NCBI RefSeq assembly: GCF_000214595.1
Contig: NZ_AFIG01000001.1
Location: forward strand, 434,001-498,000
Length of the DNA: 64,000 bases
Source of the DNA: Methylophaga thalassica MP
GTDB taxonomy: Bacteria; Pseudomonadota; Gammaproteobacteria; Nitrosococcales; Methylophagaceae
Direction: 5' to 3'
In this document: positions 13,482-45,322 of the stretch, piece by piece
How positions within the stretch are numbered: position 1 is the stretch's first letter
Layout: the number at the start of each line of letters is the position of its first letter
Notes under the pieces: generated by a model
What the model was told of the DNA's origin: nothing
Database searches by the model: none
The model's input: the letters and a program-made list of their open reading frames with translations, nothing else
Made by a program: the position numbers and the translations under genes

Positions 13482-13634
13482 TCGGCAATTTTACTGCATC
13501 TGACTCTTTTTAAGAATAATTTATTGAAATAACGGAAGGTTTTCCCGCTCTGCCATAGCCAGGACGATCATCAGATTGAAATATCTCTGACGCATACTAA
13601 GGGATCGGCAAATAAACATGATGAGGCGTGTTGC

Positions 13635-15065: not shown

Positions 15066-15088
15066 ATGAAAGGTGGATATTTTATCTG

Positions 15089-15109
15089 CACTCAGGAAAA
15101 TCCTGAGTG
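15089..15109 (+). terminator. Stem-loop after mgtE
   Basis: A perfect stem CACTCAGGA / TCCTGAGTG with loop AAA begins 24 bases after the mgtE stop codon. No T run follows, so it may stabilise the mRNA 3' end rather than terminate alone. Confidence 0.35.
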
Positions 15110-15194
15110 ATCAAAAGAAAAATACGCTATTGCGATTTGTTACAGGCTCGTAATATGGGAACCGTACTAACAAACACAAAGCGAGGTGATTATC

Positions 15195-15266
15195 ATGTGG
15201 ACTAAACCAGAATATTCAGACATGCGTTTCGGTTTCGAAGTAACTATGTACATCTGCAACAGATAA
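15195..15266 (+). CDS. pqqA: PqqA, precursor peptide of pyrroloquinoline quinone
   Basis: A 23-residue peptide starting [17 protein letters not shown]. Glu15 and Tyr19 (in EVTMY) are the two residues that PqqE cross-links and that become PQQ. The start MWTKP, the spacing and the total length fit the PqqA family very closely. GAGGTGA stands 8 bases before the ATG, and a strong terminator follows directly, so the gene is transcribed as a single unit. The modifying genes pqqB-E are not in this window, so this is an orphan copy; some methylotrophs carry several pqqA copies. A weak promoter-like pair (TTGCGA at 15130, TAATAT at 15151, spacing 15) lies upstream. Confidence 0.93.
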
Positions 15267-15285
15267 TAGTTTCTCAAATCGAGAG

Positions 15286-15317
15286 CAAAAAAGCCCCACT
15301 AGTTGGGGCTTTTTTTA
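15286..15317 (+). terminator. Rho-independent terminator of pqqA
   Basis: Stem AGCCCCA (15292-15298) / TGGGGCT (15304-15310) followed by a run of T, and preceded by a run of A. It starts 20 bases after the pqqA stop codon and could work in both directions. Confidence 0.9.
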
Positions 15318-15419
15318 TGCCTGCAGAAAAATTATCTACGTAAATTTCCTGATATACATGAATTCAGATAGACCCTAAGCTGAGCATCAGTTTCTGCATA
15401 ATGAAGATAGGGTGGCTTT

Positions 15420-16283
15420 ATGTTCAAGGTTGGCACAGTCAAACAAATCTGGCGGTATCCGGTCAAAGGGATGGCGGGAGAACAGCTTGAACAAGGTTAT
15501 TTAGGCGAAAATGGTTTAACCGGTGATCGTATCTGGGCATTGCAGGATACACAGCGGCAGGAAATTCAAAGCTGTAAGTTTCGGCCTCAATTATTGCGTT
15601 GCAGTGCGAAGTGTCGGCGTGGTGATGCGAGCGGACCCGACGATCAGGTCGATATTACTTTTCCTGACGGCGCAGTGATTGGCAGTGATGAGCCGCAGGT
15701 GAATCAGTTGCTGACCCTGTTGACGGGCTTCGATTCCACCTTGCAGCCGCTCAAACCCATTGAAGAACAAGATTTCTACAAACGTTATAAACAAGACGAT
15801 CACACCTGGCTGGAAGAATTAAAAGCCACGTTTGATCGGGAGCCGGGAGAAGCTTTACCAGATTTGGATAACTTGCCCGAACAAGCCCAGGAATATGTGT
15901 CCTTGCCCGGCACATTTTTCTTAGTCACGCCTTTTCATCTGCTCACTACGGCCACTCTTGATTATATGAAACAGCTTAAACCCGAGTCTGATTGGGCTGT
16001 GGAACGCTTTCGTCCCAATATTGTTATTGAAACCTTACCGGGGATGGAAGGCTTGGTTGAACAGGCCTGGTTAGATAAAACGATTCAGATTGGTCAGACT
16101 TATGTGCAATGTTGTGGCACAACACCACGTTGTGGAGCGATCACCCGACAACAGCGCCATATTCCCACAGATACAGGCATGCTTCGAACCATTGTGAAGC
16201 AGGCTGATCAGAATCTGGGCGTTTATGGTGTGATTGCTGAAGCCGGTATAATCCAGATTGGTGATGAGGTTTTCCTTAAATGA
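15420..16283 (+). CDS. MOSC domain protein
   Basis: A 287-residue protein with an N-terminal beta-barrel (VKQIWRYPVKGM, GENGLTGDRIWAL) and a C-terminal MOSC domain (about 150-285; ERFRPNIVIET, then a CGTTPRCGAITR stretch). MOSC proteins handle sulfur in connection with the molybdenum cofactor, as in the Moco sulfurase C terminus and in YiiM/YcbX-type proteins that detoxify N-hydroxylated bases. The Cys in PRCGAIT corresponds to the conserved MOSC cysteine. No molybdoenzyme gene is nearby, so its partner is unknown. It converges with fpr at 17 bases distance. Confidence 0.85.
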   Translation: MFKVGTVKQIWRYPVKGMAGEQLEQGYLGENGLTGDRIWALQDTQRQEIQSCKFRPQLLRCSAKCRRGDASGPDDQVDITFPDGAVIGSDEPQVNQLLTLLTGFDSTLQPLKPIEEQDFYKRYKQDDHTWLEELKATFDREPGEALPDLDNLPEQAQEYVSLPGTFFLVTPFHLLTTATLDYMKQLKPESDWAVERFRPNIVIETLPGMEGLVEQAWLDKTIQIGQTYVQCCGTTPRCGAITRQQRHIPTDTGMLRTIVKQADQNLGVYGVIAEAGIIQIGDEVFLK

Positions 16284-16299
16284 TGCGCTTCACAGCCCA

Positions 16300-17076
16300 T
16301 TATTTTTCAACAAAAGCACGCTCGATTACATAGTCGCCAGGCACACCGATACGAGGGGAAACCACAAATCCTCTTTCATCTAGTAATGCCGCTGTGTCAT
16401 TTAACATTTGTGGGCTACCGCAGATCATCGCTCTGTCGTGGGCAGGATCAAGCGGCGGTAAGCCAATATCTTCAAACAGTTTGCCACTAGTAATCAGATC
16501 CGTCAGTCGCCCCTCATTTCGGAAGGGTTCACGTGTCACGGTGGGATAATAGATCAACTTCTCTCTGACCAGCTCACCAAAGAATTCATTCTCAGGTAAT
16601 TCTTTTTCAATAAAGTCGGCATAGGCCAGCTCACTAAGATAACGCACCCCATGTACCAGAATAATTTTTTCAAAGCGGTCATAGGCTTCAATATCCTGAA
16701 TTACGCTGAGAAAAGGTGCGAGTCCGGTGCCGGTTGAAAACAAATACAGGTTTTTACCCGGTTTGAGATCATGAACCACCAGGGTGCCTGTCGGTTTTTT
16801 ACTGACTAGAACTTCATCACCTACCTTTAAATGTTGCAGGCGTGAGGTGAGTGGCCCGTTGGGGACTTTGATGCTGAAAAATTCCAGATTTTCATCATAA
16901 TTCGGGCTGGCAATACTGTAAGCACGGACTAATGGCTTATTGTCGACCTCAAGGCCAATCATCACAAATTGACCATTTTCAAAACGCAGACCCGGATCAC
17001 GAGTCGTTTTGAAGCTAAACAGATTGTCATCCCAGTGATGTACGCTTAATACGCGTTCGCTTGCAAATGTACTCAT
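16300..17076 (-). CDS. fpr: Ferredoxin/flavodoxin-NADP reductase
   Basis: A 258-residue FAD enzyme of the bacterial Fpr class that passes electrons between NADPH and ferredoxin or flavodoxin. RAYSIASPNY binds FAD, the STGTGLAPFLSV stretch and GSPQML bind NADP, and the C terminus IERAFVEK with the short aromatic-poor tail is typical of subclass I bacterial reductases. It lies 12 bases after etfA, so it is probably cotranscribed with etfBA, which puts it in an electron-transfer operon. AGAG precedes the ATG. Confidence 0.9.
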   Translation of the reverse strand: MSTFASERVLSVHHWDDNLFSFKTTRDPGLRFENGQFVMIGLEVDNKPLVRAYSIASPNYDENLEFFSIKVPNGPLTSRLQHLKVGDEVLVSKKPTGTLVVHDLKPGKNLYLFSTGTGLAPFLSVIQDIEAYDRFEKIILVHGVRYLSELAYADFIEKELPENEFFGELVREKLIYYPTVTREPFRNEGRLTDLITSGKLFEDIGLPPLDPAHDRAMICGSPQMLNDTAALLDERGFVVSPRIGVPGDYVIERAFVEK

Positions 17077-17088
17077 CGTTATCTCTTT

Positions 17089-18021
17089 TTATGAAAGGGC
17101 ATTGGTTAAAGTTGGCACGGCATCAAACAAATCAGCGACCAAACCGTAGTCAGCCACTTGGAAAATCGGTGCGTCAGGATCCTGGTTGATGGCAACCACA
17201 ATCCGGCTGTCTTTCATACCGGCCGTGTGTTGCACCGCACCAGATACGCCGACAGCAAAATACAGTTCAGGTGCTACTGTCACACCTGTTTGACCGACCT
17301 GAATTTCATTCGGTGCATAACCTGCATCCACCGCTGCTCTGGTCGCGCCCAGTGCCGCACCGAGTTTTTCAGCCAATGGATTAAGTAAGGCATCAAATTT
17401 TTCTGCACTGCCTAATGAGCGTCCGCCTGATACCACCACTTTGGCCGAGTTCAGAGCAGGTCTGTCTGACTCAATACGTGACTCGCTGATCCAGCGTGTT
17501 TTAGTGAAAGGCGCTACTGCTGTAATAGTCGTTATTTCAGCCTGACCATTTAATTCAGCCGCGGCAAACTTGCTGCCACGCACTGTCAGAATTTGGCGTG
17601 TATCACGACTTTGTATAGTGGTGTGTACATTACCGGCGTAGATAGCACGCAGGTAACGATTGTCAGATTGAATGTCCAACACATCGGATATCATCGCTAC
17701 ATCATTGAGTGCCGCTACTCGAGGTAAAACATTGCGACTAAATGAAGAATGGGCAGCAATCAAGACCTGATAATCAGTGATTATCGAGTTAATTTGATTG
17801 CTGACATCTTCTGCGATCGGATGGGCAAACTGCTGCGCATCGACATGTAATACTCGACTGACGCCATGAATCGTGGCGGCCTGTTCAGCAATCTTTTCAG
17901 ATTGGTGGCCTAAAACTAACAGGTGAACCGGCTGTCCCCAAGATTGAGCAGCAGTCACAGCATGACGAACGTCGTTATGTAGTTGCTGACCATTATGTTC
18001 TGCTAAGACTAATGTGCTCAT
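17089..18021 (-). CDS. etfA: Electron transfer flavoprotein alpha subunit
   Basis: A 310-residue ETF alpha chain. The C-terminal FAD domain has SGGRSLGSAEKFD, GATRAAVDAGY, the VGQTGVTVAPELYF stretch and AVGVSGAVQHTAG, followed by DPDAPIFQVADYG. With EtfB it accepts electrons from flavin dehydrogenases (acyl-CoA, dimethylglycine or methylated-amine dehydrogenases) and passes them to ETF-quinone oxidoreductase. Its start overlaps the etfB stop codon by four bases, which indicates translational coupling. No dehydrogenase donor is encoded in this window. Confidence 0.93.
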   Translation of the reverse strand: MSTLVLAEHNGQQLHNDVRHAVTAAQSWGQPVHLLVLGHQSEKIAEQAATIHGVSRVLHVDAQQFAHPIAEDVSNQINSIITDYQVLIAAHSSFSRNVLPRVAALNDVAMISDVLDIQSDNRYLRAIYAGNVHTTIQSRDTRQILTVRGSKFAAAELNGQAEITTITAVAPFTKTRWISESRIESDRPALNSAKVVVSGGRSLGSAEKFDALLNPLAEKLGAALGATRAAVDAGYAPNEIQVGQTGVTVAPELYFAVGVSGAVQHTAGMKDSRIVVAINQDPDAPIFQVADYGLVADLFDAVPTLTNALS

Positions 18022-31196: not shown

Positions 31197-32417
31197 ATGA
31201 AGGTTCTGGATTATTACGATAAATTCGAGTGTATTGGTTCTGATTGCGAGGATACCTGTTGTAGCGGCTGGCAAGTCAGTATCGATAAAAAAACATATCG
31301 AAAATATAAAAATATTTCAGATCAAAAATTCCGGAAAGAAGTGCTTAATAATATCGGCCCAGACAGACAAAAGGTCACCGGCGCAGAGTATAAGATCAAG
31401 CTACATGATGATGGTTCTTGTCCTTTTCTGAATGAAGACAAGTTATGTAATATTTATAAAAAATGTGGTGAAACATACTTGTCCGATACCTGCACAGTCT
31501 TTCCCCGCAGACCAACGAAAGTTTTTAATCAGTCACACTCAGCTCTAAGCTTAGCTTGCCCTGAAGTCACACGCCTGGCTATTTTACCTGAAGCCCCTGT
31601 ACAACTAATTGATATTGATATGGCTAGTGTTCACGGCCAAAGACTACAATCAATTGAATTAAAAATAGGCGCACATCTACCAGCTAATGCCCAGGAAACC
31701 TATGAAGCGATAAGGACCGTCTCATTCCACATCATACAAATGCGGCAAATCACCCTGGATGAACGTTTATTTCTCTTAGGTTTCTTCATAGATAAACTTG
31801 ATGCGGGTTCAAAAACAAACAGCTATATTTTGATGAATCAGACCATCGTTGAGTTCATTGAGGCGCTTGACTACCCAGACGAACTATTAAAACCATATCG
31901 ACAATTCGACTCAAATCCACGCCTGAAGCTCGAATATTCTCTTACGATGTTGCTTACAGATTATCCAAGAGCGGCTAATCCTCGTTTGGCAGAATGCCTG
32001 GACTGGTTAAATGAGGGCTTGGATATTAACTACAATGAGTTTGATGTAGATAAGATACTCGAGAAGTATCAAATTGCGGACGAAAAATATTATCAGCAGT
32101 TTTTACATGAACGCGGCTATTTTCTGGAAAATTACTTAATCTCTCACTTGTTCCATTCTGATTTCCCTGTATCAAGCCAACATGGTTTATTTGATAGTTA
32201 CCTTAGATTGATTACCTGCTTTACCAATATTCAAACGACTTTGATAGGAATAGCCAGTTATCATCAGAATATTGATACAGCCCATGTTCTGCAATTAATA
32301 CAAAGCTATGAGCGGTTTATCTCGCACAACACTAAATACCTACCCTCGTTGTTAGAAAAATTAAAAGATTTGAAGTTTAATTCTTTGGGCGCAATGATGC
32401 TTTTGCTTAAGCCATGA
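31197..32417 (+). CDS. FliB-like cysteine-cluster protein (flagellin lysine N-methylase family)
   Basis: A 406-residue cytoplasmic protein with the N-terminal cysteine cluster typical of FliB: FECIGSDCEDTCCSGW, then CPFL with CNIY, KKCGETYLSDTCTVFPR. FliB in Salmonella methylates lysines of flagellin; the clustered cysteines probably hold a metal or Fe-S centre. The gene is isolated, with no flagellar gene beside it, and is more AT-rich than its neighbours by eye, with repeats on both sides, which suggests separate acquisition. The substrate here is not known. ATG at 31197 has only a weak ribosome site. Confidence 0.82.
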   Translation: MKVLDYYDKFECIGSDCEDTCCSGWQVSIDKKTYRKYKNISDQKFRKEVLNNIGPDRQKVTGAEYKIKLHDDGSCPFLNEDKLCNIYKKCGETYLSDTCTVFPRRPTKVFNQSHSALSLACPEVTRLAILPEAPVQLIDIDMASVHGQRLQSIELKIGAHLPANAQETYEAIRTVSFHIIQMRQITLDERLFLLGFFIDKLDAGSKTNSYILMNQTIVEFIEALDYPDELLKPYRQFDSNPRLKLEYSLTMLLTDYPRAANPRLAECLDWLNEGLDINYNEFDVDKILEKYQIADEKYYQQFLHERGYFLENYLISHLFHSDFPVSSQHGLFDSYLRLITCFTNIQTTLIGIASYHQNIDTAHVLQLIQSYERFISHNTKYLPSLLEKLKDLKFNSLGAMMLLLKP

Positions 32418-32995: not shown

Positions 32996-33080
32996 GATGG
33001 GATAGACATTATCGGATAAGCTTGTTTGAGCTATGCTTGTCTGGGGTCGTGCTTAAATTCAATCTAATGGATAATTATCT

Positions 33081-33634
33081 ACTTCACACGCTGCCGCTTG
33101 GGCGTTCATTTAATCGAATCACGTTCTTCAACTTAAGCTCTAGCTTTTTTGAAAATCTAGTTTCGCCTTAATGGCGAGTCAGGGAAATGTTTGCCCATTT
33201 CCCTAACAACCCTAGGGCACCCCGCAGTGCTGGCCTGCGGCTTCACTCGTCATAACATTGATTCAGGCGGTCGGCTAAAACTCGCTACGCTCACAAATTT
33301 GTCTGGAACAAATTTGGACGCCGATGGCGCCCAAAGGGTGAGTGGCATGGATGCCACGAATCAAACACTAGCCTCCCTCAGACCTGAATAAATGTCATTC
33401 CTCATCAGCACAAACGGGGGATTAGAAAAAGCCCCATTTTCCCGTCTATTGCCGCTAAAAATTGGCTTCATTTTATGGGTTAAGTGGGCACGTGTTTGAG
33501 CGTAGCGAGTTGGTGTCCACGCCATAAAATGAAGTTAATTTTTAGATGTAAGGCAATATCGGGTGCCCTTTTGTTTGGTTCGTTTATTTTGGGCAAACAA
33601 AATAAATGAACGCCCCAGCGGCAGCGTGTGAAGT
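33081..33634. mobile_element. 554-bp gene-free element with 32-bp terminal inverted repeats
   Basis: The ends 33081-33112 and 33603-33634 are inverted copies of each other over 32 bases with one mismatch (outer end ACTTCACACGCTGCCGCT). Inside there is no credible gene, but several further hairpins: AGGGAAATG/CATTTCCCT (33180-33208), AAATTTGT/ACAAATTT, TGGCAT/ATGCCA, CTTCATTTTATGG/CCATAAAATGAAG (about 33468-33535) and CGTTTATTTTG/CAAAATAAATG (about 33580-33609). This looks like a non-autonomous mobile or structured repeat. No transposase is present and no flanking target duplication is obvious to me. The remaining space up to 33798 holds a palindromic repeat and nothing else. Confidence 0.7.
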
Positions 33635-33687
33635 GAAAAATAGAATAGTGTTTGAGGCAATGCTCTAACTTAAGCTAGAAAACATTT

Positions 33688-33713
33688 GTTGGGTTTCACA
33701 GGTTCAACCCAAC
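33688..33713. repeat. Palindromic intergenic repeat, copy 4
   Basis: GTTGGGTT and AACCCAAC, 10 bases between, followed by CTAC. Same family as copies at 30950, 32437 and 32968, directly downstream of the 554-bp element and of the envelope operon that ends at 33799. Confidence 0.75.
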
Positions 33714-33798
33714 CTACATTTAAAATGAGCAAGCATATCCTAAGGCGAAACTGGCACTCTGCCCAAGCTACAAAGCGTTGATTGCTTTGATTCAATCA

Positions 33799-34752
33799 TC
33801 AACGAGGCAGGGCGATAAACGTGCCATCATTTTGTTTGGTCATTTCACGCATGAGCACGCTGAAACGGTCGGTTGTACCGGGTGAGATAAAACCAATGGC
33901 ATGAATTTTTGCCAGCCTTCTGCCGGAGGGCAGCTTTTTGTTTTGCTGAGTAATGGCATCAATGACTGGGTCGTAACTGGAGCCGGTGTAATCATCACCA
34001 AACACATAAATGGATGTGGTGATATTGGCCTTGGCATATTTTCTTAAAGCGGCGGTTAAGCCTTCTACCGGACTTGAGTTAGAGACCGCATTCCACTTTT
34101 TAAACAATTCGATCACGCTTTTTCGTCTGGCTGGCGTGTCCGGCATCCATTGACCATCGTAGCCGGAAATCAGCGACTGCCCCATATCATTAAGGATTTG
34201 AAAACCTTTCACTTGTGGGTGAATATTCAGCACATTGACGATTTCCTGAGACACTTTGCCCCAGATGTTTTTCATACTGCCTGAGGTATCAACGATAAAC
34301 ACCACATAGTCACTATCAACAGGAATCCCGCCGACATCTTCATCGCGGGTTTTATTGGGCTTTTGCGGTGTTTTTAATGAGGCTTGTTTTAAACGCTCTT
34401 CCACTAAACCCAGCCCAGCAATGCTTTCTGCCGTGGCGGCTTGTTTTTGATTTAATGCTTTTAATTGCTGCTGCAGTGCTTTTGAGGCAGCAGCGGCTGA
34501 TTGTTTTTGTTCAGAAATTGACGACAGAACCTCAAGTTTTTGATTCATTTCCTGTTGAATCTGACTGACCGAATTTTGCAGTGTGACTAACTGCGAGAGC
34601 ATCGCACTGACATCTTCTGTGCCAGCAGTGGGTGCCGCGTCGACATCGGTTTTGGAGATCAGAATCAGCATCACCACCGCACCAAAGCCGCAGGAAATAA
34701 TATCCAGAAACGACAGGCTGAAAATGTCGATGCCTTTATCGCGATGCTTCAT
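33799..34752 (-). CDS. Membrane-anchored von Willebrand A protein, second of a pair
   Basis: A 317-residue protein. Residues 11-33 form one membrane helix with the motif FLDIISCGFGAV (15-26); Asp17 occupies the place of the ion-binding Asp of ExbD, TolR and MotB. A coiled coil follows (about 45-125, many Gln and Ala), then a vWA domain (about 145-317) with the MIDAS start DTSGS at 155-159. The domain should lie in the periplasm. It overlaps its upstream neighbour, a similar protein with the identical N-terminal motif position, by four bases. That neighbour follows a TolQ/MotA-type channel gene. I infer that the two vWA proteins replace ExbD/TolR/MotB in an ion-driven complex. The function is unknown; no described system with this exact set comes to mind. 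Confidence 0.82.
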   Translation of the reverse strand: MKHRDKGIDIFSLSFLDIISCGFGAVVMLILISKTDVDAAPTAGTEDVSAMLSQLVTLQNSVSQIQQEMNQKLEVLSSISEQKQSAAAASKALQQQLKALNQKQAATAESIAGLGLVEERLKQASLKTPQKPNKTRDEDVGGIPVDSDYVVFIVDTSGSMKNIWGKVSQEIVNVLNIHPQVKGFQILNDMGQSLISGYDGQWMPDTPARRKSVIELFKKWNAVSNSSPVEGLTAALRKYAKANITTSIYVFGDDYTGSSYDPVIDAITQQNKKLPSGRRLAKIHAIGFISPGTTDRFSVLMREMTKQNDGTFIALPR

Positions 34753-35810
34753 GGCCAGTTACTCGCCGGGCTGATTAATAAACCATCCGAGCTGGATGCC
34801 CAGGCCCAATACTCATAAGCTGCTTCCGGATCACCTTCCAATGGCAGCAGGATCACATTCTTTTTCGCCTGGGTCAGACCACTTTCGTTAATACTCTGGC
34901 GGAACAGCCGTTTTCGACACTCACCGGAAATGGTTTTGGCATTACTGGTCAGGGAGCTACAGCCAGAAAACGGATTCAGACTCTTATAGTTGGATTCGCC
35001 TTTGGTGGGCAAACCATCGGTGATGACATAGATATCGCTGGGTGACAGTTTGTTAACGGTGTTTAACCCTTTCTGCAGATTCGTCGCGCCGGTAGGAATA
35101 ACTTGATTCAAACTGCTCATAATGCCGGACACGCTGGCACTGCTGGCGGACATCCAGCCGGTGCCGCCTAGCTGCTTAGTGTCTTCACTAAAGGCGATAA
35201 CGGCAATCTGACTGTTTTTCGGCGCACGTGCTAATAGCCAGGCGACCACGCGCTTGGTGCGTTGCCATTTAGCGGCTGAGACTTTTGCCTGATCAGAGCT
35301 ACTTTTGGTTTTGATGATGTCGAGCAGTTTTTCATTGGTCATCGAGGCACTGACATCGACTAAGATCGCAATCTTACTGCCTTCCATTTTCAGACCGAGC
35401 AGATAGTTTTCTTCGTTGACCTGCTGTGTTTCTAGCAGATCTTCTTTTTTCGGCACTTTGATCTCGGTAATACTTTTCTTGAGTTGGTCGAGATTGGACT
35501 GTGCTGTTTGAATTTCACTGCTTTTATCGTTGAGATCGGCTCGCTGTTGTTGCAGGCTCTGGCTTAAAGCGGACAGGTCGATATTCTCTTTTTTCAGTTG
35601 CGAGGTGAGTTCATCCAAGCCTTTCTGGGCGTCATCACGCGCTTGTTCCAGACTGCTGATATCTTTTTTCAGGTTCTCCGTTTCTGAGGGCGATGACTCA
35701 ATATTCTGTTTAACCAGCATAAAAACCAGAATCACCGCGCCCAAACCGCAGGACATAATATCCAGAAAGGCGAGGTTTAATCCTTCAGCTTGTCGGTTTT
35801 TACGGGCCAA
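34749..35810 (-). CDS. Membrane-anchored von Willebrand A protein, first of a pair
   Basis: A 353-residue protein with the same layout as its neighbour: membrane helix (about 12-33) with FLDIMSCGLGAV at 15-26 and Asp17, a coiled coil (about 40-115), then a periplasmic vWA domain (about 145-350) with MIDAS residues DVSAS (Asp152), a Thr in GATNL and an Asp in ITDGLP. A complete MIDAS suggests metal-dependent binding of a partner. Cysteines in the last third (SGCSSL, GECRKR) could pair in the periplasm. It begins 6 bases after the channel gene and overlaps the second vWA gene by four bases, so the three are made together. Comparable with ExbB-ExbD or MotA-MotB pairs, but with two non-identical vWA partners. 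Confidence 0.83.
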   Translation of the reverse strand: MARKNRQAEGLNLAFLDIMSCGLGAVILVFMLVKQNIESSPSETENLKKDISSLEQARDDAQKGLDELTSQLKKENIDLSALSQSLQQQRADLNDKSSEIQTAQSNLDQLKKSITEIKVPKKEDLLETQQVNEENYLLGLKMEGSKIAILVDVSASMTNEKLLDIIKTKSSSDQAKVSAAKWQRTKRVVAWLLARAPKNSQIAVIAFSEDTKQLGGTGWMSASSASVSGIMSSLNQVIPTGATNLQKGLNTVNKLSPSDIYVITDGLPTKGESNYKSLNPFSGCSSLTSNAKTISGECRKRLFRQSINESGLTQAKKNVILLPLEGDPEAAYEYWAWASSSDGLLISPASNWP

Positions 35811-35816
35811 CGAAAA

Positions 35817-36596
35817 TCACCGAATGCGACGAAGCAAAAACTTATCACAATAATCCTGCGTATCGACGATTTGGCTGTCTTGCAGGCGTTGTAACTGATG
35901 GAATAAAAACATTAAAAAGATACTGATCAGCAAGGCGACTAAGGTGGAGTTAAAAGCAATACCGAGACTGTCCGTCATCCCCGAGATGTCACCTGCGAGT
36001 GCTTTATCCGCCTGAGATAAAGCCTGACCGATACCGCGAACGGTACCGATAAAACCAATCGAAGGAATCGCCCAGATCAAATAACGAATCATGGTATTTT
36101 CAGAATCTTGTTTGACGGCTAACGCTTCCAGGTTGCTTTCGATCGCATCCGACAGGTTTTGCACATTATTGGTTGAGCTGTAGCGCCAAAGAGAAGAGCG
36201 TAAAGTCCGCACCAGCGGTGATTGCATACAGTCCGCTGGGATTTCAGTATCCAGCCGATGAATAATCGCATTCACATCCAGAGTATGTTTTGCATCAGTA
36301 TCCTCAGCTTGTGAATGGGCATCTTTAATCAGATCCACGCTGAACAAATACTTGGTTTTGAGAATATTTCGGTAGGCACTGAGGATCAGATAACAGCCCC
36401 ACAGCATCAGAATAAAACAGATTTCCTGCTCGTAATCTTTGATAATCACGGCAATATCGCGCGGTGCAGTTTGTCCCTGACTGACGGCAAACTCAATCAG
36501 TTGTGCTGCTTCTGGGCGAACATAACCAATGTAAAACAAATGCACGACAACGATAGAAATCAGTAATGCCGCAAAACTTTTCAGCATATCTTTCAT
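35817..36596 (-). CDS. MotA/TolQ/ExbB-type proton channel protein
   Basis: A 259-residue inner-membrane protein with four predicted helices: about 7-26, 59-79, 168-190 and 213-236, with a cytoplasmic segment between the second and third. The third helix carries IPSIGFIGTVRGIGQAL (Pro178) and the fourth SLGIAFNSTLVALLISI, the two signatures of the ExbB/TolQ/MotA family that line the ion channel. Such proteins form pentamers around a dimer of single-helix partners, using ion flow to move the periplasmic partner. Here the partners are most likely the two vWA proteins encoded directly downstream. The gene starts 3 bases after a 46-residue peptide gene. Confidence 0.87.
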   Translation of the reverse strand: MKDMLKSFAALLISIVVVHLFYIGYVRPEAAQLIEFAVSQGQTAPRDIAVIIKDYEQEICFILMLWGCYLILSAYRNILKTKYLFSVDLIKDAHSQAEDTDAKHTLDVNAIIHRLDTEIPADCMQSPLVRTLRSSLWRYSSTNNVQNLSDAIESNLEALAVKQDSENTMIRYLIWAIPSIGFIGTVRGIGQALSQADKALAGDISGMTDSLGIAFNSTLVALLISIFLMFLFHQLQRLQDSQIVDTQDYCDKFLLRRIR

Positions 36597-36599
36597 GGT

Positions 36600-36740
36600 T
36601 TAGATATCCACGGGAAAGGAAACAGGAGAGTTCAAACTAATAATAGGTTTGCCGGCATAAACGTTTTTCACCATCATCAACGCCAGCAGAAACAGGGCAA
36701 TGGATAATACAATCACCAACGATTTTTTAAGTGTTGCCAT
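36600..36740 (-). CDS. 46-residue membrane or secreted peptide in the envelope operon
   Basis: A short gene between the FGE-fold gene and the channel gene. It begins 1 base after the FGE-fold gene's stop codon, and its own stop lies 3 bases before the channel gene. GGAGG stands 8 bases before the ATG at 36740, stronger than for most genes in the operon. The peptide starts MATLKKSLVIVLSIALFLLA, one hydrophobic helix of about 18 residues, then VKNVYAGK and a 20-residue polar tail rich in Ser and Pro. It could be a single-helix membrane peptide with a periplasmic tail, or a signal peptide cut after VYA. Its position suggests that it assembles with the channel. Confidence 0.8.
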   Translation of the reverse strand: MATLKKSLVIVLSIALFLLALMMVKNVYAGKPIISLNSPVSFPVDI

Positions 36741-36741
36741 A

Positions 36742-38748
36742 TTAATGACCTCCGTAAACATAACGTCCGAGCCGGAAACCTAAGTCATCGCGGCCCTGAC
36801 TGGCGCCATCCCGATACGACGCCCTTAATTTTGAGAGTGTGCCTGAACGCCAGTTAGCGCCTTTCACAACATGCTCATCACCGGCTGATTTATCCAGCGT
36901 CTGAGTATAAACAAGCCCCGGTTTAGGTACAGTAAGTGAGTAATTATCATGTGTCCATTCACTGACATTGCCGCCCAAATCAAATAAACCTGATAACTCT
37001 CTGTTCATCGACATCACCGGTGCCATGCCAGCATAACCGTCGTTATAACGTGGCACATAATGTGTCACCGAGCCTTTAGCTGATTCATCCGCTATATTCA
37101 CTGCTTTAGGGGGAATGGTTTTGTCATTACCCCAGACAAACAGTGTTTGAACCGGGCGGCCGGCTTTTCTGGCTAACCATTCCCACTCGGCCTCGGTCAG
37201 TAATCGATAACCATCAGCTTGATCATTGATTTGCGTGACCTGATTACCATTGATCTTATACACCACTGTTAGGCCTTCAAGCTGACTCAACCAGTTGGCG
37301 TAACGTACAGCATCTAACCAGGTCACGGATGTGACCGGCAAGTTCGGATTACCTTTGTGGCTTTTATCAAATTGGGCATAGGCAGCATTCGTCACTTCAT
37401 GCACCCCAGCATAAAATGGGCGGTTAATGGTGACTTTGCGGATAAACTCATTGGCCCGTTGTCCCGGCTCACTGCGTTCAGCGCCCATAATGATGGTGTC
37501 GTTTGGTGTGAATAACATCATCTCGCCGCCGGCACGGGTTTTATAGCTTCTGGGGGCTTCTTGCAGCCGGGCTTGTTTTTCAGTCAGTAAATTCACTGAG
37601 ACGCTGCTGGTCGATTTTGCTGTCGGTGTTATCGTGCGAATTTCAGCTCGGTAGCCGTCCAGACTAAAGCCGATAGTCTGTGGCAGTGCATCCAGCGTTA
37701 AGCTTAATGGCGTTTGTCCAACAGGCTTATTATTAATGGTGATATTCGCTTGGGGCGTGGACTCTATCACCACCTTGCCCATTTCTTTTTCTAAGTTGAA
37801 CTGCAGTTCGCTAGTTTCGCCCTGCTTAAGATTAACCCGCTTGGACTGGGAGAAATAGCCTGGTTTTTTGTAAGTCAGTACGTTGTTTTGATTGGCGTCC
37901 ACTTTGATGACATTTTGTAATGGCGTATCAATACCATTGACGGTCAGTGTGCCGCCCTCAGGTAACGCGGTGAGATTGACCTTTGCACGCTCTGCCTGCA
38001 GTCGATATTGCCTGTTTATCTGTGTGCTTGTCTGATTGATCTCGACAGAATCAGTGACGGTCTCAAACCCCGATTTAGTGATGTCGAGCTGATGTGGGCC
38101 GCCGGGCAGGGATAAGGTTAAAGGCGTATGCCCCTGTGCTTTTCCATCGATAGAAACATCTGCCTGAGCGGGTGTGCTGCTCAGTGATAACTCACCCATG
38201 ATGGGGGTTAAGTTAAGTGTTTCTTCAATCTTCTGCGCGGGCGCTAAGCTATATTGCCGGGTAACAGGCTCATAAAAAGGGTGACTGGCCTTGATGGTGT
38301 AGTCACCATTCTCAAATGATTGTTCAAACGTATTGGCCACGGTCGTGAGTTTGTCATTGATATACCAGCGGGTTTTATTGTCTTCCAACCCGGTTTTCAA
38401 TATGACTTCAGCAGGTAAGGGCTGCAAGGTGATTTGTGTTACTTTGCCAAAGCCGGATTGAGAAATCAGCTGTGTTGCTGTTTGGTAGCCAGGCGCAGAG
38501 GCTTCTACCTCAGCGGTGTCAGACAAACTATATAAATGATGATCCAGTATCAGAGCGATGCCACTGTTGGTGCTCAGCTTCGCTTCAGTGCTGATGGCTT
38601 CAGGCAAGACTTGAATGGGTGTCGCTCGCGAAGCAATGAGTGTCGCAAAAACAATGCAGGCAACAACGATAAAACCGAGGCTGAGCCATAACAGCATACG
38701 CCGCTGTCGACGTTTAGCAGCCTCAATGGCCTGATTAAATTCGCTCAT
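36742..38748 (-). CDS. PEGA-domain protein with inactive FGE-sulfatase fold
   Basis: A 668-residue protein: N-terminal cytoplasmic stretch, membrane helix (about 18-39), then a periplasmic part with about four PEGA-type beta repeats (for example STPAQADVSIDGKAQGHTPL, STPQANITINNKPVGQTPL) and a C-terminal formylglycine-generating-enzyme (SUMF1) fold from about 400. Typical FGE marks are present: EVTNAAYAQF, RLLTEAEWEWLARKAG, FDLGGNVSEW, GFRLGR. The catalytic cysteines are missing: the segment VVKGANWRSGT, where active FGEs have Cys, has none. The fold is therefore probably a binding module. Start at ATG 38748; a TTG at 38754 is also in frame. It overlaps the preceding gene by 14 bases. Confidence 0.82.
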   Translation of the reverse strand: MSEFNQAIEAAKRRQRRMLLWLSLGFIVVACIVFATLIASRATPIQVLPEAISTEAKLSTNSGIALILDHHLYSLSDTAEVEASAPGYQTATQLISQSGFGKVTQITLQPLPAEVILKTGLEDNKTRWYINDKLTTVANTFEQSFENGDYTIKASHPFYEPVTRQYSLAPAQKIEETLNLTPIMGELSLSSTPAQADVSIDGKAQGHTPLTLSLPGGPHQLDITKSGFETVTDSVEINQTSTQINRQYRLQAERAKVNLTALPEGGTLTVNGIDTPLQNVIKVDANQNNVLTYKKPGYFSQSKRVNLKQGETSELQFNLEKEMGKVVIESTPQANITINNKPVGQTPLSLTLDALPQTIGFSLDGYRAEIRTITPTAKSTSSVSVNLLTEKQARLQEAPRSYKTRAGGEMMLFTPNDTIIMGAERSEPGQRANEFIRKVTINRPFYAGVHEVTNAAYAQFDKSHKGNPNLPVTSVTWLDAVRYANWLSQLEGLTVVYKINGNQVTQINDQADGYRLLTEAEWEWLARKAGRPVQTLFVWGNDKTIPPKAVNIADESAKGSVTHYVPRYNDGYAGMAPVMSMNRELSGLFDLGGNVSEWTHDNYSLTVPKPGLVYTQTLDKSAGDEHVVKGANWRSGTLSKLRASYRDGASQGRDDLGFRLGRYVYGGH

Positions 38749-40180
38749 CGGCAATCACGGTGACTTGATAATCGCTACGGTTCAAAGGGATCTGCACCTC
38801 AATCAGCTTGGAGCGATAACCCTCGCGTTTGCCTTCAAAAGAGTAGGTGCCAGGTTTGAGCTGAATCGTTTTACCTGTCGTTTCGCCCACTTTCCCCACC
38901 CCGCGAACGGAGACGAAGGTTTTACCATCGGAAATCACATTCACGTTCACCGGGGTATTCACGGCATTGATGGTGGACTTCAAGTGTTGAGCCGATTTCG
39001 CCAGAGATGGACTCTGAGCACCAAAAGACTCGGCCTGAATCACATTGATATCAGCCGTAGCTTTTACCGCTGGATTACTTAGACGATAAGGGTTTTGCAA
39101 TAAGCCCTGAATATTTTGGTCGATCTCCACAATCCGTTTGGCCTGATTTAAGCGGTCGATAAGGTCTTTATTGGCTGGCCGTTCTTTTAGGGCAGCGCTT
39201 AATTCCTGTTTGGCAGTTTCCCAGTTATCGGCTTGTTGTGCCTTCTCAGCCGCGACAATATGCTGGTTGAAACGCAATTGTGACTCCAGTTGAGCTAATG
39301 CCGATTTCACTTCTTTATTTTCAGGTCGGGAAGGGTAAATTTTTTCTGCCTGACTCAGTGCCTGTCTGGCTTTTTCAACCAGCTGCTGTTCAATCGCTTG
39401 ATACGCTTGAGATATGGCCTGGTTAAAACGTGACTCGGCCAGCTGTGTGCGCAGCACCTGGGCGCGCTGTTTCATCTCTTCTCGATCGGGTTCGATTTTC
39501 AGTAATTCTTCAATCAGAGACAGCTCTTTATTCGGATTGTTTTCATTTTTAGCGACACGAATCGCTTCATTCAGCTCAACTATTTGCGGGATGTTTTCTA
39601 TTTTTTTGGCCAAGGCCTGAGCATCTGCTGAATCTGCCTTTTGAATCAGCGCGTTATCTATCGCCAGACGGGCGGTTTGATAATCATAATTGTCATATGC
39701 CTTTTGCGCCTCCTGCATGGCTTTTTCAAAAGCCGCTTCGCTGTCAGCCAGGGTTTTCTCAGCGGTTTGCGTCAGCGTATCAATGGCTTGTTTCGCTTTG
39801 GCATATTGCCCGGTGCCAAAGGTATCAACGGCGGTTTTTTCCTGGTTTTTTATGGTCTCGGCGAGGGTTTTATCCCAGCTATCAATATCGATTTTTTCCA
39901 GCTGCGGTTTCAGTGTATTTTCATAAAAAGAAAACGCATCCAGATAGGCTTGGCGTAATGCAGCAATATCTTCTTCGTTTTTCGGTTCTTCGACTTTTTG
40001 TGGTACGGGTTGTGTGTCTGACAGTGTTTCTTCAGTTGATGGTGTACTGTTAAATCGAACATTATTAAGGCTGAACAACACTAGCCCTGTTACCAGAATA
40101 AGTGAGAGCACGATAATCACGCCAATGAGCAGGCGCTGTTGTTTCGCCTGCTTGGCTCTGCGTATTTCTTCGTTGATCAT
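38735..40180 (-). CDS. Membrane-anchored helical-repeat protein with C-terminal PEGA-like domain
   Basis: A 481-residue protein with a short basic N terminus, a membrane helix (about 17-38), and a long periplasmic region of helical repeats (about 65-365; TPR-like pairs such as YDNYDYQTARLAID and the AEKAQQADNWETAKQELSAA unit). The last 80 residues (VNVNVISDGKTFVSVRG, then LKPGTYSFEGKREGYRSK) look like a PEGA-type beta domain. The N-terminal layout resembles that of the next gene's product (charged start, one helix), so the two may sit side by side. It ends inside the start of the FGE-fold gene. A scaffold role in the periplasm is inference. Confidence 0.75.
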   Translation of the reverse strand: MINEEIRRAKQAKQQRLLIGVIIVLSLILVTGLVLFSLNNVRFNSTPSTEETLSDTQPVPQKVEEPKNEEDIAALRQAYLDAFSFYENTLKPQLEKIDIDSWDKTLAETIKNQEKTAVDTFGTGQYAKAKQAIDTLTQTAEKTLADSEAAFEKAMQEAQKAYDNYDYQTARLAIDNALIQKADSADAQALAKKIENIPQIVELNEAIRVAKNENNPNKELSLIEELLKIEPDREEMKQRAQVLRTQLAESRFNQAISQAYQAIEQQLVEKARQALSQAEKIYPSRPENKEVKSALAQLESQLRFNQHIVAAEKAQQADNWETAKQELSAALKERPANKDLIDRLNQAKRIVEIDQNIQGLLQNPYRLSNPAVKATADINVIQAESFGAQSPSLAKSAQHLKSTINAVNTPVNVNVISDGKTFVSVRGVGKVGETTGKTIQLKPGTYSFEGKREGYRSKLIEVQIPLNRSDYQVTVIADERI

Positions 40181-40188
40181 GGCGGCGT

Positions 40189-41424
40189 TTAAAGCGCTTT
40201 ATCAGGTGTCGATTCAAGCTCATACATACGTGCCATGAAGGCACGCCATTGCTGAAACTGCTGTTCCATATTACCGGTCAACTTGGTGCTTTGATTTTCA
40301 AACTCAATCACTTGAGGTGACATTTCCAAATCCAGTGACTGGCCCAGCTCATTGATCGCATCCTGATGGAATTTGGCTTCTTCACGCGAAGTAATACCAC
40401 TGGTAATTAACACCGCACCGCCAATCCCTCCGGCGATAGTGACCATATCCCTGCCCAAGTTATTGTCATAACGGCTGCCATTTGAACCTACCGCCACCGC
40501 CGCAGCAATTAATAAGGCGCCACCCACAATTTTCATCAGACTTTTATTCTGTGCTTCTTGTTGAAGTTTCAGTTCTGTCGCACTGGCTTTTTGCCAGGTC
40601 AGATAACTGTCATCCATTTTCTGTGAAAAAGCGGCGTAGTTAGGTTGCAGGTTATCAACAAATAATTGTTCTTTAACGCGAATCGCTTTCACTCGTTCAT
40701 AAAGCGGATCCGCTTCACTCGGCATGCCTTTAAGTTTAATTGGCGTGGAGCTGGTATCCATATATTCATCAAAGGCTTTGTCGTTAAAGCTGGCACCGAA
40801 GCGTAAATCAGCAATGTGTTTTACCGTGCTTAAGTCCGATGGTTTTTGTTTCAGTAAGGCTTTGACGATATCAGCCGCTGCTTTATCAAATGCCGGATCA
40901 TAAGGATCCTTATCGGTATTTCTGGGATTTTTGTAAAAGCCATCTCCCACCTCGTAGTCGATATTGTCATCCAGCCACTGTTTGCCACTGGCATCGACCA
41001 CTTGCATATCAAATTCCACTTCCAGGCCATTTGATTCAACAATATTGCCTAAAACATATAGATCACCTGAAGCGGTTTTATCAGGTGTGACTCGAACCGC
41101 ACCAAACTTGCCAGTATCATCGAGCGCTTTTTTAAGTTTATAGGCGAAACGATTTGCTTCAGCCCGACGCAGTTCCGGCCATACACCTTCTTTTTCATAA
41201 TTGGCCGCTTTGTCAGAAAGACCGGGTGAGAACACTGGAATAACCACGTCCATTTTTGGGCCGCTGTAAGCCGTTTTCGACATATCTTCACTAAAGCTTG
41301 AAGACGATCGCGGTCCGACATTCACACCTGATCCGGATGTAGTAGCACAGCCCGTCAGCACATGCAGCATGACCAGCAGGTAGACCAGAAACTTGGATGG
41401 TTTTCTAAAACGATCAATGTTCAA
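40189..41424 (-). CDS. Envelope lipoprotein of unknown function
   Basis: A 411-residue lipoprotein: signal peptide with lipobox VLTGC (Cys at about 26), then a polar domain. It contains FSPGLSDKAANYEKEGVWPEL, a segment GDLYVLGNIVESNGLEVEFDMQV, and a hydrophobic stretch with many Gly near residue 300 (KIVGGALLIAAAVAV and GGIGGAVLITSG) that could enter a membrane. The start is TTG at 41424, supported by AAGGG upstream; it overlaps the previous gene by 11 bases. No family recognised beyond a faint likeness to curli-type CsgG lipoproteins in the GDLYVLGNI region, which I would not rely on. It likely sits at the outer membrane and is part of the eight-gene operon. Confidence 0.72.
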   Translation of the reverse strand: MNIDRFRKPSKFLVYLLVMLHVLTGCATTSGSGVNVGPRSSSSFSEDMSKTAYSGPKMDVVIPVFSPGLSDKAANYEKEGVWPELRRAEANRFAYKLKKALDDTGKFGAVRVTPDKTASGDLYVLGNIVESNGLEVEFDMQVVDASGKQWLDDNIDYEVGDGFYKNPRNTDKDPYDPAFDKAAADIVKALLKQKPSDLSTVKHIADLRFGASFNDKAFDEYMDTSSTPIKLKGMPSEADPLYERVKAIRVKEQLFVDNLQPNYAAFSQKMDDSYLTWQKASATELKLQQEAQNKSLMKIVGGALLIAAAVAVGSNGSRYDNNLGRDMVTIAGGIGGAVLITSGITSREEAKFHQDAINELGQSLDLEMSPQVIEFENQSTKLTGNMEQQFQQWRAFMARMYELESTPDKAL

Positions 41425-42055
41425 CGTTCATACCCTTATATTTTCTGTATTCATCCCAGAGCTTTTTGCGTATCTCTGGGTCGGTTTCTGCCTCGGCGGC
41501 GACACGGATCTGAGCAGCAATGGCATCATCATTATCCGCTGGTGGAATATCTTCCGGAATCTTACCATTCTCAGCGACACTGCCTGAGGCAGATATCTTA
41601 CCTGAACCCGATTCAGTTGATTCTTGTGTATCTGATGCCGCTGCCATAGCTTCGTTAGAAGGCGCTTGTTCTGTGCCTTGCATCATGTCACTGGCTACTG
41701 ATTCGGTACCACTGGCACCACCTGCTAAACTTCCATTGCCGGTGTCACCACCGCCGCCACCTGAACCGGAGCCAGCGCCAGCACCTGAGCCATTACCACT
41801 ATTAGCTGAGGATGAATTGGATGAGATGGAGATATTACATAACTCAAAGCGATTGAGAGAATCACTCAGCGCCTGTTCCATACGGGCCAGTTTTTCTGCT
41901 CGGGTCAACGCGGGATTATCCAGATAATCCACACTCACATTTTTACAATCCGTTGTATTGCTTGCGGATTCATCCGCCTGACTCAGCCCGGAATAGAGCA
42001 TAGAACCCGACGCAATGGTGAGTAATAAAAAGACAGAGATAGGCTTTTTTCTCAT
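41414..42055 (-). CDS. Secreted Gly/Ser-rich protein, first gene of the envelope operon
   Basis: A 213-residue protein with a signal peptide (cleavage after SQA, residue 27). The mature part has two cysteines (TDCKNV, ELCNIS) and a short helical region (DNPALTRAEKLARMEQALSD), then a low-complexity stretch of Gly, Ser and Ala (about 80-120) and an acidic Ser-rich part, ending in a charged helix (DPEIRKKLWDEYRKYKG). It looks like a flexible periplasmic or surface linker protein. I do not recognise the family. It is the first gene of the operon; the space to the next upstream gene holds a terminator, so a promoter should lie between 42056 and 42118. Confidence 0.72.
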   Translation of the reverse strand: MRKKPISVFLLLTIASGSMLYSGLSQADESASNTTDCKNVSVDYLDNPALTRAEKLARMEQALSDSLNRFELCNISISSNSSSANSGNGSGAGAGSGSGGGGGDTGNGSLAGGASGTESVASDMMQGTEQAPSNEAMAAASDTQESTESGSGKISASGSVAENGKIPEDIPPADNDDAIAAQIRVAAEAETDPEIRKKLWDEYRKYKGMNVEH

Positions 42056-42118
42056 CGTTGAAAAACGCTCCCGAGATATTCATTGATTAATGATAGCTAT
42101 CTTAAAACGATAAGACAG

Positions 42119-42150
42119 CAAAAAGCACAGATCTTTCCTGACCTGTGCTT
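42119..42150 (-). terminator. Terminator of the PQQ sugar dehydrogenase gene
   Basis: Reading the minus strand, stem AGCACAG (42144-42150) / CTGTGCT (42125-42131) is followed by five T. It separates the dehydrogenase gene from the envelope operon, so that operon has its own promoter. Confidence 0.75.
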
Positions 42151-42192
42151 CAGCTGATAATAAAATGCTACAAGCAGTGAGTGACTTAAGTG

Positions 42193-43509
42193 TTATTCGG
42201 GGCTAACACGCCATATCGTGTTGCCGACATCATCAGCCACCAATAAGCCACCCATTTTATCGACCACAACACCGACCGGACGTCCTCTTGCATCACCATC
42301 CTCATTGACAAATCCGGTTAAGACTTCCTGAGGAAGGCCATCAGGCTTACCATTCTTAAACGGTACAAAAATCACTTTATAACCGCTTAATGGTTTTCTG
42401 TTCCACGAACCGTGCTGACCAATAAACGCGCCATGATGATATTTCTCTGCCAGCAAATCTGCTTCATAAAACGTCAGGCCCAATGATGCAGTATGAGCGC
42501 CCAATGCATAATCGGGTTTGATAGCTTTTTTCACTAACTCAGGTCGTTGCGGTTGCACTCGGGTATCTACGTGTTGTCCGTAGTAACTATAAGGCCAGCC
42601 ATAGAATGCACCGTCTTTCACTGAGGTCATATAATCCGGCACCAGATCACTACCGATTTCGTCACGTTCATTGACCGTGGTCCAAAGCTCGCCGGTCTGT
42701 GGCTGCCAAGCCAGTCCATTAGGGTTGCGTAAACCTGAGGCAAATATACGTTTTTCACCGGTTTGCAGGTTCACTTCCAGAATGGCTGCACGATTTTCTT
42801 CTGCTTCTATGCCGTTTTCACCGACATTACTGTTTGAACCCACAGTGGCATAAAGCTTTGTGCCATCTTTATTTGCAATAATATTCTTGGTCCAATGGTG
42901 GTTAATCGGTCCTCCCGGTAAATCTGTCACATGCTCTGGCTTAGCGGTGATTTGAGTCTGTCCTTCTTTATAAGGGAATCGCACAATCTCATCAGCATTG
43001 GCGACATAAAAGTCATTGCCAATCAGTTCCATACCAAAGGGAGAATGTAGATTATCTAAAAACACATGCCGTGTTTCAGCGACACCATCATTATCGTTGT
43101 CACGAAGTAAGGTAATTCTATCGGCACTGGGTACTGCCGCACCGGCATCTTCTAATACCATACCTGTAATCCAGGACCTAATACTCCAATCTGTACTTTC
43201 ACTCTTTGGTGCATTTGATTCAGCTACTAATACATCGCCGTTGGGCAAGACATACAACCACCGAGGATGATCTAAATCCACAGCAAACCGATTGACCATA
43301 AGTCCTTCAGCAGCAGTGGGTTTGGCATCAATCGGCCAGCCCTCAGCGGGAGCAATATTTAGGGTGGGGATAAGCGATGTTTCGGGTGCCACTAAAACAG
43401 GATCAGGTCCAAAATCCGCTTGTGATGCAATTTTAGATGTATCGCCACAGCCACTCAGGCTAAGGGCGATAATACTGATCGCGGCGCTGTTTTTATAAAG
43501 GTGCTGCAT
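42193..43509 (-). CDS. PQQ-dependent sugar (sorbosone-type) dehydrogenase lipoprotein
   Basis: A 438-residue lipoprotein with lipobox LSGC (Cys at about 21). The beta-propeller domain has the marks of the sorbosone/soluble glucose dehydrogenase group: [57 protein letters not shown] and [11 protein letters not shown] near the end. Members use pyrroloquinoline quinone and calcium to oxidise sugars or related alcohols in the periplasm; the real substrate here is unknown. The ATG at 43509 has AGGAG upstream and begins the signal peptide, so I chose it over the earlier in-frame codon at 43560. It gives the orphan pqqA gene at 15195 a possible user in the same region. Confidence 0.87.
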
Positions 43510-43691
43510 AGTGTGCTCCTTTGAATGAATATTTGAGTCTAACAATATTGACCTTACCAATGACTTGCTTTGGGTTAAAGGATGATTACTTGAAATGGAT
43601 CAACGTGATCGTCAATAAAAAATGACCTTGGAATTCTTTAATAATTCACATTGTCATAAAAAGCGGTTTATTCACCTTTCAAGGAGATAAC

Positions 43692-44111: not shown

Positions 44112-44212
44112 TGCGGTGAATAACGTGATTAATCACCGCATAAAATGCGGTAAATAATTTGTTTTTGCGGTGAATAAAGATTATTATCACTGCATAATTT
44201 GCGGTGATTAAT
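44112..44212. promoter_or_regulatory. Palindromic repeats TGCGGTGA ahead of the Fic gene
   Basis: Within 100 bases the word TGCGGTGA(A/T)TAA and its variants occur at 44112 and 44166 as single copies, and as inverted pairs CACCGCA-TAAAA-TGCGGT (44134-44151) and CACTGCA-TAATT-TGCGGTG (44188-44206). The second pair reaches the start codon at 44213. Such an array fits autoregulation by a DNA-binding protein, most likely the Fic protein itself, which has a C-terminal winged helix. Confidence 0.6.
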
Positions 44213-45322
44213 ATGTGGATATACCAACACAAGAACTGGCCTGACTTTTCGTGGAATGTAAACATCCTGGCCGCTAAGCTAGCTGATATTCGTCATCAGC
44301 AGGGCCGCTTACTTGGCAGAATGGAAGCGATCGGCTTTGACTTGAGAAGAGAAGCCAGCCTCAGAACATTAACTAATGATGTGGTGAAATCCTCAGCCAT
44401 TGAGGGTCATACTCTAAATCCTGATGAAGTACGTTCCTCCATTGCTCGTCGCTTGGGTATGGATATTGGCGGTTTGATTCCAGCTAGTCGTGATGTCGAG
44501 GGCATCGTCGAAATGATGCTGGATGCGACACAACGCTTCTCCAAACCTTTAACAACAGTACGTTTGTTTGATTGGCACGCCGCACTTTTCCCGACTGGGC
44601 GAAGCGGTATGCACCACATCACAGTGGGCGACTGGCGCTTAGTTGAGAATGATCCTATGCAAGTCGTCTCAGGTCCAATCGGAAAAGAAAAAATTCATTT
44701 TGAAGCGCCAGCCGCTGAAAAAGTGAATGCAGAAATGGGTACGTTTATAAAGTGGTTTGAGAGTAAAGCTGATATCGACCCCGTTATAAAAGCTGGCATT
44801 GCTCATCTCTGGTTTGTGACTATTCACCCTTTTGAAGATGGCAATGGCCGAATTGCTCGAGCGATTGCCGATATGGCATTAGCGAGAGCAGATAAGATGC
44901 CCGAGCGGTTTTATAGTCTGTCTAATCAAATTGAGAGTGAACGAAAACAGTACTACGCACATCTTGAAAAACAGCAACGAGCAACACCTGATATCACAGA
45001 ATGGCTAAGCTGGTTTTTAGATTGTTTGGGCCGAGCTATTACCAATGCAGATGAAACGCTAAGTAATGTGTTATTCAAAGCCAGATTATGGGATAGAGTT
45101 AACCAAAACCCGGTTAATGAACGACAGCGCCGTATTATCAATCGTATGCTTGAAGATGATTTTGAGGGACACATGAATACCTCTAAATATGCCAAGTTAG
45201 CTAAGTGCTCAAACGACACGGCATTACGCGATATTCAAGATTTAGTTACGCGACAACTCTTTATACAAAACCCAGGCGGTGGACGGAGTACGAGTTATAG
45301 GCTAACAGCTGAGATAGATTAG
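44213..45322 (+). CDS. Fic-domain protein with DUF4172 N terminus and C-terminal winged helix
   Basis: A 369-residue Fic protein. The catalytic HPFEDGNGR (205-213) is complete, so AMP transfer from ATP to a target hydroxyl is likely. An N-terminal inhibitory motif SSAIEG (60-65) is present, so activity is probably self-inhibited in cis. The last 75 residues (NERQRRIINRML, KYAKLAKCSNDTALRDIQDLV) look like a winged helix that could bind DNA. The frame opens at GTG 44204, but MWIYQHKNWPDF is the standard DUF4172 start, so I begin at 44213. Target unknown. Upstream palindromes fit autoregulation; the following genes suggest a defence or stress block. Confidence 0.9.
   Translation: MWIYQHKNWPDFSWNVNILAAKLADIRHQQGRLLGRMEAIGFDLRREASLRTLTNDVVKSSAIEGHTLNPDEVRSSIARRLGMDIGGLIPASRDVEGIVEMMLDATQRFSKPLTTVRLFDWHAALFPTGRSGMHHITVGDWRLVENDPMQVVSGPIGKEKIHFEAPAAEKVNAEMGTFIKWFESKADIDPVIKAGIAHLWFVTIHPFEDGNGRIARAIADMALARADKMPERFYSLSNQIESERKQYYAHLEKQQRATPDITEWLSWFLDCLGRAITNADETLSNVLFKARLWDRVNQNPVNERQRRIINRMLEDDFEGHMNTSKYAKLAKCSNDTALRDIQDLVTRQLFIQNPGGGRSTSYRLTAEID

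Follow-up and report, generated by a model that had tools for sequence, protein, structure and literature searches.

An eight-gene operon of Methylophaga thalassica combining a TolQ-like channel, a vWA pair, and envelope partners: a candidate ion-driven motor

Described ion-driven motors and the operon of M. thalassica

The ion-driven envelope motors that are understood are few, and comprise the flagellar stators, the Ton and Tol systems, the gliding/T9SS motor, and Zorya. A motor core of a further kind was predicted in June 2025 (Mol Biol Evol 2025 msaf138, Fig. 4c-d; PMC12204202); TolQ-like genes are described there as tightly linked to heterologous vWA pairs, with an Asp-bearing pore helix. 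The published TolQ-vWA clusters are without tolR or exbD, occur mainly in Proteobacteria and Verrucomicrobia, and have a seed from Idiomarina, and AF3 models put the Asp of the vWA helix inside the Thr ring of the TolQ-like pentamer (PMC12204202).

The window analyzed here is a stretch of 64,000 nt from Methylophaga thalassica MP (GCF_000214595.1, NZ_AFIG01000001.1, positions 434,001 to 498,000 of the forward strand), and all positions below, apart from those given with a locus number, refer to it. The ORF listing of the window contains eight ORFs at 33799-42055 on the minus strand, with neighbours overlapping or at most 8 bases apart (Table 1). A preliminary description of this DNA had claimed eight tightly packed minus-strand genes, bounded upstream by a terminator and downstream by a repeat, and each of these statements agrees with what was found. 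In the leader, a hairpin at about 42120-42151 (minus strand) followed by TTTTT was read directly; it would terminate the upstream minus-strand gene at 42193-43560, and is absent from the terminator scan list because its loop of about 12 exceeds the limit of the scan. Downstream, at 33000-33750, lie long inverted repeats, including a pair with 39-nt arms (33074-33641, 90% complementary, 490 nt apart) and a 24-nt pair at 33455/33522. Scanning the window for Rfam families and tRNAs gave no match.

Table 1. Features of the operon in the window, with the genes listed in order of transcription
Feature	Length (aa)	Position	Strand	Basis
Secreted Gly/Ser-rich protein	213	41414..42055	-	ORF, homologues, conservation
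Outer-membrane-type lipoprotein	411	40189..41424	-	lipobox Cys26, structure model
Helical (TPR-like) solenoid + PEGA/transthyretin-like sandwich, inner-membrane-anchored, periplasmic	481	38735..40180	-	structure model
PEGA x3 + FGE/SUMF1-fold protein, inner-membrane-anchored	670	36742..38754	-	Pfam, NCBIfam
Single-helix peptide, periplasmic tail	46	36600..36740	-	conserved C-terminus
MotA/TolQ/ExbB-type channel subunit	259	35817..36596	-	PF01618
vWA partner A (vwaA)		34749..35810	-	VWA_2, conserved Asp17 + MIDAS
vWA partner B (vwaB)		33799..34752	-	paralogue of partner A by profile
Intergenic leader of operon with hairpin		42056..42192	-	direct reading of sequence

The operon has the architecture of the msaf138 clusters, with a heterologous vWA pair beside a tolQ-like gene and no tolR, exbD, or motB, a likeness judged by architecture. 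It shares with the TolQ plus TPH-vWA pair a TolQ-like channel, two different Asp-helix vWA proteins, the lack of tolR/exbD, and occurrence in Proteobacteria. However, the text of the paper contains neither the word PEGA nor the word FGE, and no lipoprotein or peptide partner is named in its accessible part (PMC12204202). The preliminary description had not recognized the system, a statement that needs correcting because the core of TolQ and a vWA pair was published as a prediction in 2025. The full composition of eight genes, as well as the FPxDI tail of the small peptide, appears to be undescribed; no description of the full eight-part set was found in the literature searched, which covered few subscription papers or preprints. 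With the ExbBD, TolQR, MotAB, and GldLM 5:2 motors the operon has in common a PF01618 channel with two pore Thr residues and an Asp on a single-helix partner, whereas its partner is a putative vWA heterodimer and its channel falls into a clade of its own.

We consider it probable, at roughly 0.68, that the operon builds a 5:2-type ion-driven motor, in which the channel surrounds a vWA heterodimer, coupled to an outer-membrane-proximal assembly. With the stoichiometry of the family, five channel subunits would enclose one helix each of vwaA and vwaB, and ion flow through the pore, with proton or sodium use as elsewhere in the family, would move the helix pair. The pair would bear a periplasmic coiled-coil stalk with both vWA domains, which may grip a ligand via the MIDAS metal and engage periplasmic scaffold parts. 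Force would then pass to the scaffold of PEGA and solenoid proteins and to the outer-membrane lipoprotein. The putative end task would be to move or assemble something at the outer membrane or the cell surface, and the operon would amount to the complete trans-envelope machine of the preliminary description. A conserved eight-part unit with a vWA pair would add a motor whose parts list is now in hand, which makes its function testable by deletion in cultured strains (e.g., Methylophaga). More tentative, and on balance doubtful, is the proposal of a self-contained trans-envelope class, in which a vWA-heterodimer rotary motor has its own scaffold and lipoprotein ring, an FPxDI docking ligand, and a task of no known motor.

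The putative motor core and its envelope partners

The channel matches PF01618 (MotA/TolQ/ExbB) at E=1.8e-13, with 50.8 bits against a Pfam cut-off of 22.9. Its residues T185 and T218 are invariant throughout the family alignment and align with the pore Thr residues of the genome's own TolQ/ExbB, and the motif KDYEQEIC is conserved ahead of TM2. In NCBIfam the channel passes no TolQ/ExbB/MotA equivalog model, the only match being exbB2 (20.7 bits against 135), and the nearest solved structures score poorly by sequence (MotA E=0.18, TolQ E=0.71). The genome encodes, at other places, PomA, a further flagellar motor protein, and proteins above the TolQ equivalog cut-off. A tree of the channel core region, for which the references were drawn from one genome only, puts the operon channels into a single clade (UFBoot 97), separate from TolQ, ExbB, and PomA of the M. 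thalassica genome.

Pfam finds no ExbD/TolR/MotB-type gene among the eight genes. Partner A matches VWA_2 at 1.4e-10; partner B is weak in Pfam (0.035), yet the A and B profiles cross-match at about 1e-41, and B is therefore a clear paralogue of A. A PDB sequence search with the vwaB profile returned only chance or coiled-coil matches. Both proteins begin with a basic stretch followed by the helix FLDI-SCG-GAV, in which Asp17 is invariant in both families, and this transmembrane helix leads through a coiled coil to a vWA domain in A and a vWA-like domain in B. Because each has an ExbD-like N-terminal helix with an invariant Asp and the operon has no ExbD-type gene, the vWA pair probably stands in for the ExbD/TolR/MotB periplasmic partners, as had been proposed at the outset. 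The MIDAS of partner A is complete, with D152, S154, S156, T243, and D265 all invariant; partner B keeps invariant D155xS157xS159 and D253, while the MIDAS Thr site is replaced. A conserved Cys pair in the C-terminal part of the vWA domain of partner A (C284/C298) suggests a periplasmic disulfide. Two apparent anomalies of partner A were rejected: the lack of the Asp in 11 relatives is a start-site artefact, and a "fused" vwaA of 1766 residues in locus L071 reflects a stretch of N in the assembled sequence.

The larger scaffold protein contains three PEGA domains (2.6e-33) and an FGE-fold domain (7e-33) in Pfam. No conserved Cys is present in the active-site stretch across the family, so that the FGE catalytic Cys pair is missing and the fold is probably inactive, as first described; the protein has a single conserved Cys column, 486, where the window has Ala. 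The helical protein, previously described as ending in a PEGA-like domain, is confidently modelled (mean pLDDT 91.5) as a long solenoid with a C-terminal transthyretin/PEGA-like sandwich. Its structural matches to TPR proteins have moderate Z and are to be read cautiously, as is advisable for helical repeats.

The 46-residue membrane peptide noted in the preliminary description is present, counted from the ATG at 36740, and is the best-marked small part of the operon by its near-universal FPxDI C-terminus (SFPVDI-COOH in the window). A strict FP(V/I)DI-stop occurs exactly once per locus in 84 of 104 loci; of 11 further peptide junctions inspected, 10 end in the variants FPADI, FPTDI, FPSDI, or MPSDI, the remaining one (L129) having no FPxDI-type end; in the other loci without FP(V/I)DI the junction is missing or the cluster is of another type. 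The peptide is in every case encoded between the FGE gene and the channel gene, and its linker is about a dozen residues long in some relatives and up to about 100 in others. A short linear motif for docking is the most likely role of the tail, which would be a ligand of the pseudo-FGE cleft or, via its Asp or C-terminal carboxylate, of the vWA MIDAS; it offers a concrete and cheap handle on the docking of parts. Because many members have an AXA-like site after the helix, it is possible that the peptide is cleaved and free in the periplasm.

Neither the lipoprotein nor the secreted protein belongs to a Pfam family. The lipobox Cys of the lipoprotein (C26) is 96% conserved and the residue at +2 is Ala, which is of the outer-membrane type and consistent with the earlier proposal of a unit spanning from the inner membrane to an outer-membrane lipoprotein. 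Its structure model (mean pLDDT 74.5) has a well-modelled core and a helical C-terminal part. Residues 48-198 adopt a fold matched by FlgT (Z 11.4), PelC (11.0), CsgG (9.8-10.2), and TolB (9.7), as well as PqiC, with Z of 9-11.4 across 102-135 residues, rmsd of 2.2-3.8, and sequence identity of only 8-17%. Foldseek by itself reached at best E=4.7e-3, and a PDB sequence search with the lipoprotein profile gave only chance or coiled-coil matches. Unlike the FlgT/PelC/CsgG/TolB N-terminal-type proteins, the operon lipoprotein has an extra C-terminal helical region. Several proteins of the FlgT/PelC/CsgG/TolB-N/PqiC type form rings, and by analogy the lipoprotein may form one, although a ring is one option only because the fold is widespread. 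The secreted protein has a signal peptide, an N-terminal part with C37 and C73 (Cys columns conserved at 86-88%), a Gly/Ser-rich linker, and a conserved C-terminal motif with D169, P171, Q182, A186, A187, E190, L199, W200, Y203, and Y206. The motif Q...AA..E........LW..Y..Y corresponds to no known family.

These envelope partners recall the PorKLMN (GldKLMN) system of T9SS and gliding, in which an ion-driven motor, an FGE-fold protein, and a lipoprotein likewise occur in one gene set and the 5:2 motor is coupled to a GldK/GldN ring (PMC8986121). A GldKLMN-like role in secretion or surface assembly would have the motor turn the FGE protein and a lipoprotein ring, with the secreted protein as part or substrate; it is one possible output of the preferred 5:2 motor and not a different motor. 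The FGE-fold domain is indeed closest to GldK/PorK in NCBIfam (3.5e-21), and the lipoprotein fold resembles those of the export lipoproteins PelC and CsgG. However, the GldK score of 76 bits is far below the equivalog cut-off of 350, the operon FGE protein is inner-membrane-anchored with PEGA domains and is not a lipoprotein, the lipoprotein has another fold, and the operon contains neither a GldM/GldN/SprA-type match or other T9SS translocon part nor a gene for an outer-membrane channel. We regard such a role as unlikely.

Conservation, related clusters, and other readings

Scanning species-representative genomes with the channel yielded 72 loci, to which profiles of the eight proteins were applied. 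The preliminary description had let its proposal stand or fall with conservation of the genes together in other genomes, and they are conserved together: all eight occur in 44 loci, colinear on one strand in 43. Such recurrence argues that the arrangement is not due to chance. The sole non-colinear full locus, L062, consists of two facing blocks (7726-17986), and also has a second channel-like gene (17039-17986). The 72 loci belong to Methylophaga, other Gamma-, Beta- (Nitrosomonadaceae), Alpha- (Rhodospirillales, Magnetovibrio), and Zetaproteobacteria (Mariprofundus), Desulfobacterota, and Binatota. The 44 loci with the full set span Methylophaga and all the other classes and phyla named, and include an Alteromonadaceae locus (L070). 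The distance matrices of seven operon genes correlate at 0.89-0.97, values that partly reflect common descent of one operon.

The distribution is patchy. Partner B matches at E<=0.001 in 41 of 369 sampled gammaproteobacterial genomes (about 28 strong by manual count), and nearly all of these stretches with enough sequence show the same gene set, which distant relatives keep. The operon is found in 13 of 78 Zetaproteobacteria genomes and in 14 of 24 Methylophaga genomes. Of the latter, 14 have both the lipoprotein and vwaB, 8 have neither, and 2 are mismatched, and both mismatches sit on contigs cut off beside the gene. Because the lipoprotein tracks partner B in this way, the operon is an accessory one that is gained or lost whole, and the patchy presence means that many species can do without the machine. 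The channels of Methylophaga are about 65% identical to those of Desulfobacterota but only approximately 40% identical to those of some Gammaproteobacteria, which suggests spread by horizontal transfer. A flagellar link was rejected, as flagellin occurs in operon-less Methylophaga and is absent from one operon-bearing genome (94% completeness), and a flagellar role is unlikely from this distribution.

Variant clusters were also observed. In several distant members (L126:8577-9968, L114:4151-5485, L133:1336-2700, L073:10659-12041, and others) an extra gene lies between the channel gene and vwaA; its product is Hsp70/actin-like and, in several of them, bears an FHA domain at the C-terminus (PDB profile: HSP70 E=0.0013, FHA about 1e-4). 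Other clusters combine a TolQ-type channel with an Asp-bearing-helix protein (FSMSALDLFASAMGAFI or similar; L136:1716-5016, L140:4048-10443), and in L137:5560-10171 a protein with such a helix has no evident vWA domain. The L136, L140, and L137 clusters hold PP2C phosphatases, trypsin-like (S1) proteases, and, depending on the cluster, FHA proteins or a protein kinase, of which PP2C and FHA were assigned by Pfam and the protease and kinase by eye. In the channel tree, the sequences from L136 and L140 cluster with those of the operon (UFBoot 97).

Such neighbours would suit an ion channel that is gated or acts as a sensor, in place of a motor, with the vWA domains detecting envelope stress or a ligand and the channel relaying the signal: the Hsp70-like/FHA protein of distant members and the phosphatases, FHA proteins, proteases, and kinase adjoining the related clusters all hint at this. 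However, the operon in the window is without a cytoplasmic signalling partner, a search of the genome for an Hsp70/FHA gene (a single weak test) gave no match, and force transfer is the better match to the conserved motor residues and the series of envelope parts. We hold a sensor or gated channel to be improbable.

A second Tol-Pal-like system, tethering or remodelling the outer membrane, would account for the TolQ-like channel and the TolB-N-like fold of the lipoprotein, but the genome has its TolQ equivalogs elsewhere, the operon channel falls short of every TolQ/ExbB/MotA model, and a patchy, dispensable system is not what such a role would lead one to expect; this makes it still less probable. 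An anti-phage system like Zorya is very improbable: ZorAB too pairs a MotA-like channel with an Asp-helix (MotB-like) partner and weak ZorA/ZorB matches occur in the operon, but these are marginal (1e-4 to 4e-3), the channel is without the long cytoplasmic tail, no nuclease, helicase, or other Zorya gene is present in the operon, plasmid and phage collections searched with vwaB gave no match, and, besides the motor, five of the eight genes encode envelope components, namely membrane-anchored periplasmic, secreted, or outer-membrane-type proteins.

No chromosomal neighbour is widely common to the loci, the commonest flank cluster occurring in 17 loci at scattered positions. In the window, the flanking gene at 44204-45322 encodes a Fic-family protein, and that at 31197-32417 encodes a CxxCxxCC-domain protein, which resembles the FliB flagellin lysine methylase by eye and lies just under the Pfam cut-off.
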